Origin: Opitutales bacterium
GTDB taxonomy: Bacteria; Verrucomicrobiota; Verrucomicrobiia; Opitutales; UBA953
DNA: 64,000 nt
Assembly: GCA_030725715.1 (NCBI GenBank)
Contig: JANRFG010000006.1
Coordinates: 38,947-102,946, forward strand
Direction: 5' to 3'
Shown piece by piece: positions 21,709 through 27,297 of the stretch (positions within the stretch are counted from its first letter, which is position 1; each line of letters opens with the position of its first letter). The position numbers were made by a program, and so were the translations under genes. The notes under the pieces were generated by a model. The model saw nothing but the letters and a program-made list of their open reading frames with translations. It was not told the DNA's origin and ran no database searches.

Positions 21709-21829
21709 GGGAGTGTCTCGGGCGGACTTTGGCAGGCCCGCCCTTCCCTTCCAGCCTTTTTGCGGACGTATGACACCGCTTGCCTCCCCTCCCCTCGCCC
21801 CTTGGGATGACCTCGGCTCACGCCTTCCC

Positions 21830-23188
21830 ATGTCCGTCACCGAGACCATCGTCGCCGCCGCGACTCCTGCGGGCCGTTCGGCCCTGGCGATCGTCCGCGT
21901 CGACGGACCGCTCGCCGCGACCATCGCGACCGCCGCGCTCGGCCGGAAGTCGCCGCCCGCGGAGAAGAAGTCGACCCTCGGCATCTGGCGCGACCAGGCC
22001 GGCGCGCCGATCGACCAGGTCGTGGCCGTGCTCTGGTCCGCCGGACGTTCGTTCACCGGCAATGATTCGCTCGAGATCACCTGCCATGGCAACCCGCTGC
22101 TCGTGCGCCGGATCACCGAAGACTGCCTCGCGCGCGGCGGCCGCCTCGCCGAGCCCGGCGAGTTCACCCGGCGCTCGTACCTCGCGGGCCGCATCGACCT
22201 GACGCAGGCCGAAGCCGTCGCCGACCTGATCCACGCCAGCTCCGAACGCGCGCTCGCCTCGGCGCGGCGCATGCTCGCCGGCGAGCTCGGCCGGCACGTC
22301 GCCCGCTGGAGCGACCGCACGTTGCAGGTCCTCGCCGAACTCGAGGCCCACATCGATTTCCCCGAAGAAGACCTCCCGCCGGAGGACCCGCGCGGCCCTG
22401 CGGCCCGCTTGGCCGAAATCGCGTCAGAACTTTCCGCATACGCCCGCACCGCGAAGCACGACGGCGCCCTGCGGGCCGGCCTGCGCGTGGCCGTCGTCGG
22501 CGCGCCGAACGCCGGCAAGTCGAGCCTGCTCAACGCGCTGACCGGCGCCGAACGCGCGATCGTGAGCCCGGAAGCCGGCACCACGCGCGACTACCTCGAA
22601 GCGCCCGTCGCCGGCCTGCCGCTCGCCGTCACCGCGATCGACACCGCCGGCCTGCGCGACGGCGGCTCGACGGTCGAGAACCTCGGCATGACGCGCTCGC
22701 TCGAACAGGCGCGCAGCGCTCATCTTCTCCTCCTGGTCGTCGACGCTTCGGCCGAGCCCCCTGCCCTGCCCGCAGAACTCGTCGCCTTGCTCGACCCCGC
22801 GCGCACGCTCGTGGTCGCGAACAAAGCGGACCTCCCCCCGCACCCCACGCAGAAAGATTTCCTGCCTCAGCTCACCAAACTGTCGGCCTGCCTCCTGGAT
22901 GGCCGCGACGCCGAGCAGCTGCGCGCCAAGCTCGGCGACTTCCTGATCACCCAGGAGATCGCCCCGGGCGCCGAAGAGCTCGTCGTCTCGGTCCGCCACG
23001 CCGAGGCCATGGCCCGGGCGGCGGTCGCCCTGACCGAAGCCGGCGGCCACCTGAAGGCCCCGATCCAGACCGAGCTGGCGGCCGCCCAGGCCCGGGCCGC
23101 CCTGGACGCCCTGGGGGAGATCGTCGGACGCATCGATAATGAGCGTATGCTGGACAAGCTCTTTGCTTCCTTCTGCATAGGTAAGTGA
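21830..23188 (+). CDS. mnmE: tRNA modification GTPase MnmE
   Basis: With MnmG it installs the 5-carboxymethylaminomethyl group on wobble U34. The 452-residue protein has the N-terminal tetrahydrofolate-binding domain ([20 protein letters not shown]), a helical domain, the GTPase G1 [12 protein letters not shown] near residue 225, G2 TTRD, G3 DTAG, G4 NKAD, and the C-terminal CIGK whose Cys is conserved in the family. The ATG at 21830 gives the standard N-terminus; an in-frame ATG 60 nt upstream is less likely. Its stop is followed 23 nt later by the mnmG start. Confidence 0.95.
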
Positions 23189-23211: not shown

Positions 23212-25092
23212 ATGCGACCTCACAAACAAATCCGCCTCGGGCCCGACCGCCCCTACGACGTCATCGTCTGCGGGGCCGGCCATGCCGGCGTGGAAGCCGC
23301 CCTGGCCGCGGCCCGCATGGGCGTGGACGTCCTGCTCCTGACGGGCAACGTCGACACCATCGCCCAGATGAGCTGCAACCCCGCCATCGGGGGGCAGGCC
23401 AAGGGGCATATCGTCCGGGAGATCGACGCCCTCGGGGGCGAGATGGGCCTGACCGCCGATGTCACCGGCATCCAGTTCCGCCTGCTCAACTCTTCCAAGG
23501 GCCCGGCCGTCCAGGCTCCCCGCGCCCAGTGTGATAAGAAGGCGTACCAGTTCCGGATGAAGCACCTCTGCGAGCTGCAGGAAGGCCTGACCATCTTCCA
23601 GGCCCAAGTCACCGGGCTGATCTTCAAGGCCGGCGCCGTCGTCGGTGTACAGACCAACTTGGATCTCGATTTCCATGGTAAGACCGTGGTCGTCACTACG
23701 GGTACTTTCTTGCGTGGCCTGATGCATATCGGGGCGAATAAGACCGAAGGCGGACGGCTGGGTGATTTTAGTGCTAAGTCCTTGTCAGCCAGTTTCTTAG
23801 AGGCTGGAATTGAACTCCAAAGACTTAAGACGGGCACCCCTCCGCGTATCCTCGGTTCCTCCATTGATTTCAGCAAGTGCGAAGAGCAGCCGGGCGATGC
23901 CTGCCCTACCCTTTTCGCCTTCCACGACACCCGTCAGCAGACCGATTTGTTCCACGTGGAACAAGCGGGTGAACGCCTCCCCGGGTGGACTCCTGGGAGC
24001 GACCAGGTTTCTTGTTGGATGACGGAGGCCACGGGCGCCACCGGCAAGATCGTCCAAGAGAACCTCCACCTCTCCCCCCTCTATGGAGGCGAGATCGCCG
24101 GGGTCGGTCCGCGCTACTGCCCTTCCATCGAGGACAAGTTCGTGAAGTTCTCGGATAAGGACGCCCATAAGCTCTACCTCGAGCCCGAAGGCCGTAATAC
24201 CGACGAATGGTATATCAACGGCCTGTCGACCTCCCTGCCCTTTACCGTCCAGCTGCAGATGCTGGCTTCGGTCCCAGGATTGGAGAAAGCCGTCATGCTA
24301 CGCCCGGCCTATGCCGTAGAGTACGATTTCGCGCCCCCGACCCAGCTCTACCCCACCCTGGAGTCCAAAAAGGTCGATGCCCTCTTCTTTGCCGGCCAGA
24401 TCAATGGTACGTCTGGCTATGAGGAAGCCGCCGCCCAAGGCCTAGTGGCCGGGGTTAACGCCGCCTGTAAGATCAAAGGCCAGACTCCCATGGTCCTAGG
24501 CCGCGACGAGGCCTATATCGGCGTCCTCATTGACGACCTCGTGACTAAAGGCACCCAGGAGCCTTACCGGATGTTCACCAGCCGGGCTGAATTCCGTCTA
24601 TTGTTCAATCACGGCAGCGCTGAACTTCGTCTGAAGGATAAAATCGCTGAATTCGGCCTCGTACCCCCTGATCGGCTATCCCGCATACAGGCCAAGGCCC
24701 AAAAGGTCTCCCATTGGATTGAATACCTCGAGAAACTGGCGATCCCGGGCGGGATCGCGGGAGATGTCATCCGCCGTAACTGGGATTCGACCCCCAAGGA
24801 CTTGCCGCCGACATTCCTTGCCGAAGCACCCGAGGTTCAGGCCGAAGTCATGTATCGGGTCAAATACCGCGGCTATCTGGAGCGCGAAACGCGGAACGCC
24901 CGCAAGCTTCACGACCTGGATTCCTTTAAGGTGCCTGAAGGCTTTGATTTTCTAAAAGCCTACGGCTTGCGAATCGAGGCCCGCCAGAAGCTCCAGACCA
25001 TCCAGCCCAAGACCCTGGGTCAGGCCAGCCGGATCAGCGGGGTGAACCCGGCCGACATCTCGCTACTGATGGTCCTTTTCCGCTCTAAGTAA
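23212..25092 (+). CDS. mnmG: tRNA modification FAD protein MnmG (GidA)
   Basis: The FAD partner of MnmE. The 626 residues begin with the dinucleotide-binding [21 protein letters not shown] and [24 protein letters not shown], and later have [26 protein letters not shown] and [11 protein letters not shown] chose the ATG at 23212 because GGTGAGGG lies 7 nt upstream; a GTG overlapping the mnmE stop (GTGA, 23185) is in frame. A segment near residues 225-265 differs from the family's usual sequence and carries a parS site coding for LFHVEQ. Composition falls to about half GC around 23761-23880, against about three quarters in mnmE. Confidence 0.95.
23947..23964. other. parS site 1 (ParB-binding centromere), inside mnmG
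   Basis: A perfect palindrome TGTTCCACGTGGAACA at 23948-23963, extended by one T/A pair on each side. It matches the consensus TGTTNCACGTGNAACA of chromosomal parS at all defined positions. It is in the mnmG reading frame. Confidence 0.88.
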
Positions 25093-25122
25093 GGAGCGCA
25101 TCCAGAGGGGGGAGGGAAGGGA

Positions 25123-25142
25123 GGTGTTCCACGTGGAACACC
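25123..25142. other. parS site 2, just after mnmG
   Basis: The same 16-bp palindrome TGTTCCACGTGGAACA at 25125-25140, extended to a 20-bp perfect palindrome by GG/CC flanks, 32 bp after the mnmG stop. The two sites are about 1.18 kb apart. Confidence 0.9.
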
Positions 25143-25169
25143 CCTATGTAAAGATTGTGGCCGCACGGT

Positions 25170-25198
25170 GTGACGGTCATGTTTCTAAAATCTATAAA
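25170..25198 (+). promoter_or_regulatory. Candidate promoter of the phoB-phoR-like pair
   Basis: GTGACG (25170-25175) and TATAAA (25193-25198) are separated by 17 bp in the only AT-rich stretch of the gap after mnmG. This would give a leader of about 105 nt before the phoB-like ATG. I saw no clear Pho box. The rest of the 218-bp gap holds parS site 2 and nothing else recognisable. Confidence 0.45.
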
Positions 25199-25310
25199 TA
25201 CTTGGCGAGCAATGACATATGGAACAAATAGAGGTGCGTCACGCAACCGCCATCATTGACACCTAACTCTGGCGCTACGGGGCCTGGTGCTTTTAAGTGA
25301 GGGCGCACCC

Positions 25311-26006
25311 ATGGACGCCGAACATCTCAAGCGCATCTTGATCGTCGACGACGAAGCCGACGTCACCGAGCTCTTGGACTATAAGTTCAAGCAGGCGGGC
25401 TACGCCATCCGGACGCTCAACGACCCGCTGCGGGCCATCGGCCTCGCGCGGGACTTCCGCCCGGACCTGATCATCCTCGACGTGATGATGCCGGAACTCA
25501 CCGGCGTGCAGCTGCTCCGCATGATCCGCGCCGACGCGCTGCTCCAGGACACGCCCGTGATCTTCCTCACGGCCAAGGGCGAGACGGTCGACAAGGTGAA
25601 GGGCCTCGAGTCCGGCGCCGACGACTACGTGACCAAGCCTTTCGACGCGCGCGAGCTGATGCTCCGCGCCCAGGCGCTCCTGCGCCGCGCCAAGTCCGCC
25701 GCCGCCCAGCCGACGACGCGGCTCGCCGCCGGCGCGCTGCTCCTCGACATCGAGCGGCATGAAGTGACCGCGGCGGGCAAGCCCGTCGACCTCACGGCGA
25801 CCGAGTTCAAGCTGCTCCGCCTGCTCCTCGAGCGGAAGGGCAGGGTGCAGTCGCGGGAAGAACTGCTTTCGGACGTGTGGAATTATTCGCCCGACCTCGA
25901 GACGCGCACCGTGGACACGCACGTCCGCCGCCTGCGCGAGAAACTCGGACCGGCCGGCGACGTGATCGATACGGTGCGCGGCGTCGGTTATCGCGTGAAC
26001 GGCTGA
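25311..26006 (+). CDS. phoB: OmpR/PhoB-family response regulator
   Basis: A 231-residue two-component regulator. The receiver domain (residues 8-122) has the acidic pair VDDEAD, phospho-acceptor Asp57 in IILDVMM, and Lys in VTKPF. A winged-helix domain of OmpR type follows (about 135-230) with LTATEFKLLRLLLERKG, TVDTHVRRLREKLG and IDTVRGVGYRV. The ATG at 25311 has AGTGAGGG 7 nt upstream, the same arrangement as mnmG. The neighbouring kinase and PstS-like protein suggest phosphate control, hence the symbol, but this is inference. Confidence 0.8.
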   Translation: MDAEHLKRILIVDDEADVTELLDYKFKQAGYAIRTLNDPLRAIGLARDFRPDLIILDVMMPELTGVQLLRMIRADALLQDTPVIFLTAKGETVDKVKGLESGADDYVTKPFDARELMLRAQALLRRAKSAAAQPTTRLAAGALLLDIERHEVTAAGKPVDLTATEFKLLRLLLERKGRVQSREELLSDVWNYSPDLETRTVDTHVRRLREKLGPAGDVIDTVRGVGYRVNG

Positions 26007-26055: not shown

Positions 26056-27297
26056 ATGACCTGGCTCCCTTGGCTGCTCCTGCTCGCGCTCGGCGCGGCC
26101 GCCGTCTGGGCGCTGGGGGAACACGGCGCGCACCTCCGCTGGGCGCGGCGCGCCTTGCGCGGTGACGCCGACGCGAAGCGCCCGCAGGGGTGGCTCGTCC
26201 GGGCCCTGCAGCTGGAGGAGCTCTTCATGGCGATCGAGCGCCGGGCCGAGAACGAGGACGAGATCCGCGCCGCCGCGGGGCGGCGCATCGAGGCCTTGCT
26301 GGCGCCGCTCACCGACGCGGTGCTCGTCGTCGACGCGCAGGACCGCCTCCGTCTCGCGAACCCGGCGGCGGTGGCCTTGTTCGGGCTCGCCGAGGAGGAC
26401 ATCGGCGGCCCGGTCGTGCCGCTCGTCCGCAGCGCGGACTTCATCGAACTGATCCGGCGCGTCCGCGGCGAAGGCGACGCGCGCGCCACGCTGCTCCTCA
26501 ACCGCGCGCCCCTGGCCGACGTCTGGCTGCAGGCCGCCGGCGCCCGCACCGACCCGGAGGCGTTCGGCGAGGACGCCGCGATCTTCGTGCTCGCGGACGT
26601 GACCGCGCTGAAGCGCCTGCAGGCCATGGAGCGCGACTTCGTGACGAACGTCTCGCATGACCTCCGGACGCCGGTGACGATCCTGCGCGGCTACGCGGAG
26701 ACGCTCGCCGAAGACCAGGCGACGATGTCGGCCGAAGACCGCGCGCGCTTCACGCAGAAGATCGTGGGCTCCGTCGGCCGCCTCCAAGGGCTCGTCGAAG
26801 GCCTGCTCGCGCTGGCGAGCCTCGAGTCATCCCGCGAGGTCCGGCGCGAAGCCGGCGCGCTGCACGCGGCGGCGCGCGAGGTGGCCGCGGAGTTCGAAGC
26901 CCGCTGCAAGGCCGCGGGCGTCACGATCGGCCTGGAGCTGACGGCGCAGCAGGACGTCGGCGCCGACCCGATCCAGGCGCGCCGGCTCATCCAGAACCTG
27001 ATCGACAATGCGCTGGCCCACGCCGCCGGGCTGACCCGGCTCCGGATCACGACCCGAGACACGGAGGACGGGACCGAACTGAGCGTCGAAGACGACGGGG
27101 CGGGGGTGACGAACGCCGACCTGCCGAGGCTCTTCGATCGCTTCTACCGGACCGACAAATCTCGACGGGCAGGCGGCAGCGGCCTGGGCCTGAGCATCGT
27201 CCGCCAGGTGGCGGAGCTGCATGGCGGCTCGGCCGGGGCCGAACCCGCGCGCCCGAAAGGCCTCCGGGTGATCGTCACCATCCCGCGGGTCGACTGA
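26056..27297 (+). CDS. phoR: Sensor histidine kinase, PhoR-like
   Basis: A 413-residue kinase and the likely partner of the regulator 49 nt upstream. It has one N-terminal membrane helix (residues 2-20), no periplasmic sensor, a PAS domain (about 70-185, starting IEALLAPLTDAVLVVD), the H-box FVTNVSHDLRTPVTILRGY near residue 200, N-box LIQNLIDNALAHA, G1 DDGAGV, F-box FYRTDKSR and G2 GSGLGLSIV. The single helix plus PAS fits PhoR, which senses through the transporter rather than directly. Confidence 0.82.
   Translation: MTWLPWLLLLALGAAAVWALGEHGAHLRWARRALRGDADAKRPQGWLVRALQLEELFMAIERRAENEDEIRAAAGRRIEALLAPLTDAVLVVDAQDRLRLANPAAVALFGLAEEDIGGPVVPLVRSADFIELIRRVRGEGDARATLLLNRAPLADVWLQAAGARTDPEAFGEDAAIFVLADVTALKRLQAMERDFVTNVSHDLRTPVTILRGYAETLAEDQATMSAEDRARFTQKIVGSVGRLQGLVEGLLALASLESSREVRREAGALHAAAREVAAEFEARCKAAGVTIGLELTAQQDVGADPIQARRLIQNLIDNALAHAAGLTRLRITTRDTEDGTELSVEDDGAGVTNADLPRLFDRFYRTDKSRRAGGSGLGLSIVRQVAELHGGSAGAEPARPKGLRVIVTIPRVD

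Follow-up and report, generated by a model that had tools for sequence, protein, structure and literature searches.

Two exact copies of the 16-mer TGTTCCACGTGGAACA stand about 1.2 kb apart in the 64,000-nucleotide window (the whole stretch of DNA that was analysed), and very likely both function as parS centromeres in a chromosomal ParABS system, the first of them embedded in mnmG. This assignment is made by sequence comparison, in which both sites match the parS consensus TGTTNCACGTGNAACA exactly. Site 1 occupies positions 23948–23963 inside mnmG (gidA; 23212–25092, forward strand, 626 aa; PF01134 2.3e-154, PF13932 4.7e-21), where the codons TTG TTC CAC GTG GAA CAA (23947–23964) encode residues L246 to Q251 of MnmG in frame, reading LFHVEQ. 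Site 2 at 25125–25140 is intergenic, its first base being the 33rd after the mnmG stop codon (32 bp lie between), and is followed by the gene of a PhoB-type response regulator. The perfect palindrome is 18 bp long at site 1 and reaches 20 bp at site 2. The initial annotation had described two perfect parS copies at this spacing, one intergenic and palindromic over 20 bp, the other coding LFHVEQ within the mnmG frame, and each of these points was confirmed together with the positions.

With up to three mismatches allowed, these remained the only two places found in the window, while dinucleotide shuffles of the window gave a mean of 0.54 matches under the same setting and two or more matches in 11 of 100 cases. 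The exact consensus likewise occurs only at sites 1 and 2 in the whole assembly (1,927,859 bases in 37 contigs, 94.86% complete), and the clustering of copies that had been anticipated from the window thus holds genome-wide. A two-mismatch setting returned one further parS-like place in the genome, as many as its reversed-pattern control, which in its exact form gave no match.

MnmG was identified by its GIDA and C-terminal domains, the MnmG fold and the RYCPSIEDK region; R301, Y302, C303, P304 and S305 are invariant in 62 aligned sequences. Upstream lies mnmE (21713–23188, forward strand; PF12631, PF10396, PF01926), whose true start may be downstream of the first possible codon. The response regulator gene 3′ of site 2 (25287–26006, forward strand; PF00072, PF00486) is succeeded by that of a histidine kinase, PhoR-type by position (26056–27297, forward strand; PF02518, PF00512). 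The same mnmE-mnmG-phoB order is found in G146, a genome of the same genus. Between site 2 and phoB, a block resembling TTG[AT]CACCTAACTCTGGC (25256–25273) is shared by 26 of the 30 genus sequences, and GTAAAGATT (25148–25156) by 13 of the 30; as a guess, these blocks (within 25148–25276) may be Pho boxes or origin elements.

Could the palindrome be the target of another DNA-binding protein or, at site 2, part of an mnmG transcription terminator? We consider this very unlikely. Base complementarity does extend into the flanks of the intergenic site, where 76 of 176 cells in 22 genus loci are complementary compared to a mean of 55.6 and a maximum of 73 in 500 shuffles, yet the 16-mer is the exact parS consensus and the sites have decayed in two complete genomes that lack ParB (see below), both of which argue against either form of this explanation. 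The terminator is furthermore disfavoured by the absence of a T run directly 3′ of site 2 and by the position of site 1 in the middle of a gene, leaving it a weak possibility for site 2.

Conservation of the sites was assessed in 57 genomes of the genus and order, which were searched with the MnmG protein and, separately, with the parS motif. The protein search supplied 48 mnmG loci, namely the best 30 matches, all from the genus, together with every order-level genome that matched (18). The exact site sits in mnmG at the homologous place and in the FHVE frame in 44 of these 48 protein-selected loci (28 of the 30 genus loci and 16 of the 18 from other families), and 22 of the 30 genus loci also carry an exact parS 3′ of mnmG. 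The mnmG matches of two of the 18 order-level genomes, G043 and G052, contain an in-frame TAA. Both genus exceptions, G014 and G018, differ by one synonymous change in the site, GTG to GTA; G018 keeps the exact site 3′ of mnmG, and G014 has a downstream site with one mismatch and an exact site on another contig. Among the order exceptions, G042 gave neither an exact parS nor a ParB match, and G038 has its exact site about 20 kb off, with MFHVEQ in frame in another long ORF. That parS-bearing gene (L055:1259–4000) encodes a PD-(D/E)XK nuclease domain, and mnmG there is without a site. Overall, an exact parS was found in 50 of the 57 genomes; six of the seven others gave no full mnmG, and the seventh is G042.

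The class was sampled with 286 genomes, 56 from the order and 230 from outside. In 54 of the 286 (45 of 56 and 9 of 230, respectively), an exact copy precedes the RYCP codons by a fixed distance; the count is a minimum, as the spacing between site and RYCP varies. G119 and G178 carry the exact mnmG site at another distance, raising the order to 47 of 56, and allowing one mismatch adds G018, G201, G108, G277, G114, G282 and G325, bringing it to 54 of 56. Of the remaining two, G299 has lost the mnmG site and G329 gave only a partial mnmG match. The mnmG site is the sole exact parS in 33 of the 56 order genomes. In G119 (L343) the MnmG loop around the site has grown to dozens of residues and holds one exact and one single-mismatch site. 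Outside the order, 139 of 230 genomes contain an exact parS; of the 130 of these that do not show the site at the fixed distance, 46, which are not a random draw, were examined, and the site lies in frame inside mnmG in 37 of them and within about 500 bp of the mnmG match in three, the last six having no mnmG in the stretch. Its place within the loop varies by group (FWKDDLFHVEHSG..., or NGMFHVEQIPCW).

Other classes of the phylum share the site as well: among 76 genomes from beyond the class, 13 carry an exact copy at the fixed RYCP distance. A motif scan of named genomes yielded at least 118 stretches, among them 114 with the site in frame in mnmG, three without and one undecided, and their titles are mostly from Opitutales, other Verrucomicrobia, Kiritimatiellae and Lentisphaerae. 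Pelagicoccus, Cerasicoccus and Pontiella (L216, L254, L196 and L163) are examples of cultured relatives with the site. In seven loci (L162, L233, L234, L237, L247, L257 and L258) the site lies about 10 residues further upstream in MnmG, reading RGVFHVEHGD or similar, and six of these carry acidobacterial titles, which suggests a separate origin of the site in acidobacterial-type loci. Three of them (L233, L234 and L247) have a further exact copy roughly 1.9 kb past the one in mnmG. L241, titled Acidobacteriaceae, has a Verrucomicrobia-like loop and may be mislabelled. No member was gained outside the two phyla from L202 (Neisseria) and L175, in which parS is present and mnmG is missing from the stretch, nor from L213 (Bacillota), whose sites lie outside mnmG; L153, the undecided locus, was covered by two blast pieces. 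An MnmG tree of 135 mostly motif-selected rows required 14 changes of site class compared to 32.6 in shuffles, but it only hints at vertical inheritance because at least L040 and L257 were misclassified by the regular expression. The feature is not peculiar to the genome of the window.

The way the site is encoded points to the DNA. In a codon test over 18 families, all 16 that have FHVE use TTC CAC GTG GAA, although third-position GC across these families varies between 0.29 and 0.79. The product of probabilities for FHVE, calculated from the codon usage of each gene with families treated as independent, is 10^-26.5. None of the 271 other conserved columns uses one codon throughout between families. 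Within the genus the contrast is weaker, with 19 of 500 other columns being single-codon and GTA occurring in the site in two genomes. Five loci (L151, L182, L195, L218 and L262) hold an additional site in mnmG that is read in another frame, as VPRGT.

Loss of the partner protein was followed in the same sample. ParB was matched in 279 of the 286 class genomes, and 99 of the 286 are without an exact parS. We searched 26 of the latter with MnmG, of which 23 gave mnmG and 18 of these 23 have a site with one or two mismatches there. The five without a near site are G071, G080, G299, G089 and G329, the match of G329 missing the loop. G071 and G080 are complete 0.9-Mb genomes with no ParB and no exact parS, the best match in their mnmG loops has at least four mismatches, and the relics FHVKQ and FHVRQ are left there, while G142 from the genus of these two has both ParB and the exact site. 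G299 possesses ParB and has lost the loop site, with two single-mismatch sites upstream of mnmG. In G089 ParB is present as well, the loop is left with the relic FHARQ, and no exact parS was found (L327). The reverse case, an exact site and no ParB match, is seen in G045, G195, G204 and G209, which are drafts of 20–540 contigs with 86–95% completeness. In G073 (L337) the usual loop has decayed to FRMEQMPCW, and an exact parS is located at nucleotide 1567 of the mnmG match, encoding MFHVEH.

Selection therefore seems to act on the DNA rather than on the peptide, as judged from these sequence patterns. The opposite reading, in which LFHVE[QH] serves MnmG as a functional peptide and the palindrome results from conservation of the protein, appears highly improbable to us. 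It could draw on the in-frame peptide in 114 of the at least 118 scan stretches, which were however picked by the DNA motif, and on the partial peptides retained in the ParB-less G071 and G080. Yet it is at odds with the single codon set in 16 of 16 families as against none of 271 other conserved columns, with the second sites read as VPRGT in five loci and with the intergenic copy in the window, and the peptide is gone in G038, G042 and G299 while mnmG is open. The proposal in the initial annotation that protein evolution at this place accommodated a DNA centromere is hence backed by the codon test, by sites read in another frame and by the decay in ParB-less genomes, the last with G089 as a counter-example. 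Selection for the DNA palindrome would fix 16 consecutive bases and thereby dictate [LMV]FHVE[QH] in a tolerant loop of MnmG.

The segment coding for this loop (about residues 240–262; 23929–23997, forward strand) falls into a gap in the alignments with three solved MnmG structures, 2zxh, 3cp8 and 3cp2, so that the description of this segment as unlike the usual MnmG sequence holds against these three. A model of the protein built from 62 sequences reached a mean pLDDT of 90.9, and the solved structures closest to it are those of MnmG/GidA. Residues 249–252, in and just after the parS-coded peptide, form its sole stretch of at least three residues with pLDDT below 50; the loop is not the least confident part of the model, since block 451–460 scores lower (60) than blocks 241–250 (64) and 251–260 (67). 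A cryo-EM report on E. coli MnmG assigns residues 193–348 to insertion domain 2 (PMC12397908). Counted along the alignment, the loop falls in this domain before Cys277; it does not adjoin this catalytic residue, which follows about 35 residues after it. The loop probably has no conserved role in the enzyme, its neutrality for MnmG being deduced.

The genome encodes a predicted Spo0J-family ParB on contig C10 (TIGR00180 1e-47; matches to Spo0J 1vz0 with 6.4e-53 and to ParB 6t1f with 9.9e-44), which contains the ParB_N, HTH_ParB and ParB_C domains, i.e. N-terminal, HTH and dimerisation domains. We take the GERRFRA motif of ParB to have a role with CTP and the N-terminal domain to be the CTP-binding one. 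The best putative ParA-type ATPase is found on contig C18 (PF13614 1.9e-52). On the contig of the window, C6, neither ParB (TIGR00180) nor ParA-type (PF13614) genes were among the matches listed, and no parA was seen by eye among the neighbours of parB. The statement that the window holds no parA or parB gene was thus correct and can be refined, as both are on other contigs and apart from each other, and the ParB gene sought in the genome is present. parS, parB and the best parA candidate are spread over the three contigs C6, C10 and C18. The ParA-type and ParB genes of G040 (0.366 and 0.985 Mb) and G055 (2.391 and 2.527 Mb) are also far from parS; in G040, parS, the parA-type gene and parB are all hundreds of kb apart.

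ParB loading, CTP-driven spreading and a function in segregation are established for the ParB family, and by analogy we infer the same for the sites described here. ParB made from another contig would be expected to load with CTP at both sites and then to spread over the mnmE-mnmG-phoB stretch, and ParA would move ParB so that the origin region segregates after replication. The ParA-type and ParB genes lie at a distance from the sites and also from one another, which might suggest remnants of an older segregation system now out of use; this is hardly credible given the intact ParB domains and the strict synonymous constraint on the site across families.

Four relatives have the site at or near the GC-skew minimum; in the genome of the window, too, the sites may lie close to the replication origin. 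The skew of G040 turns at about 2.290 Mb with the site at 2.274 Mb, that of G055 at about 0.90 Mb with the site at 0.883 Mb, and that of contig C4 of G146 at about 92 kb with the site at 82 kb (20-kb resolution); G078 has its minimum somewhere between the 4.05 Mb sample and the contig end, and the site is at 4.237 Mb. The contig of the window itself shows no V-shaped skew: values are mostly positive up to about 60 kb, mixed from there to 95 kb and negative beyond.

Chromosomal ParABS systems with parS sites are known from Bacillus subtilis (Spo0J), Caulobacter (ParB) and Pseudomonas aeruginosa. The loci described here share with them the 16-bp consensus, a Spo0J-type ParB and the location near the skew minimum in the four relatives, but they differ in the small number of sites (34 of the 56 order genomes have one exact site, 14 have two and eight none), in having one site at a fixed place of one gene, and in the separation of the ParA-type and ParB genes both from parS and from one another in the genomes inspected. 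Many bacteria have a gidA-gidB-parAB-oriC neighbourhood, which is resembled here by mnmE-mnmG adjoining parS and, in the four relatives, by the nearby skew minimum, whereas phoB follows mnmG here and parA and parB are encoded elsewhere. parS sites, also inside genes, are already known: nine of ten predicted parS of P. aeruginosa PAO1 most likely lie within genes (PMC4368675). The present site shares this location inside a coding sequence but, beyond what the passages on PAO1 describe, occupies a homologous place of one gene in many families, within a protein segment that three solved relatives lack. A Hi-C study of gut bacteria including Akkermansia places origins by parS, with no gene named in the portion available (PMC10197239). 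Among the titles and abstract openings listed for the literature searched, none dealt with parS in mnmG/gidA of Verrucomicrobia or Acidobacteria, or with a parS position that is constant within one enzyme across a clade and visibly affects the protein.

A further-reaching idea would be that mnmG holds the chief and often only centromere of much of the phylum, that this arrangement arose independently in two phyla, and that it couples functions, with ParB loading modulating mnmEG transcription or transcription modulating centromere assembly, thereby linking tRNA modification to origin segregation. Taken as a whole, we judge this to be unlikely.

If our assignment of both 16-mers as parS is right, a centromere would have become lodged in a single conserved gene and set part of its protein sequence throughout a large clade, a clear example of protein sequence being written by selection at the DNA level. 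Strong conservation of a peptide in an enzyme could then reflect DNA rather than protein. The parts of this ParABS system would be scattered over the chromosome, and G071 and G080 compared with G142 would offer a natural ParB-loss comparison. The mnmG site would furthermore predict the position of the centromere in many uncultured Verrucomicrobiota.
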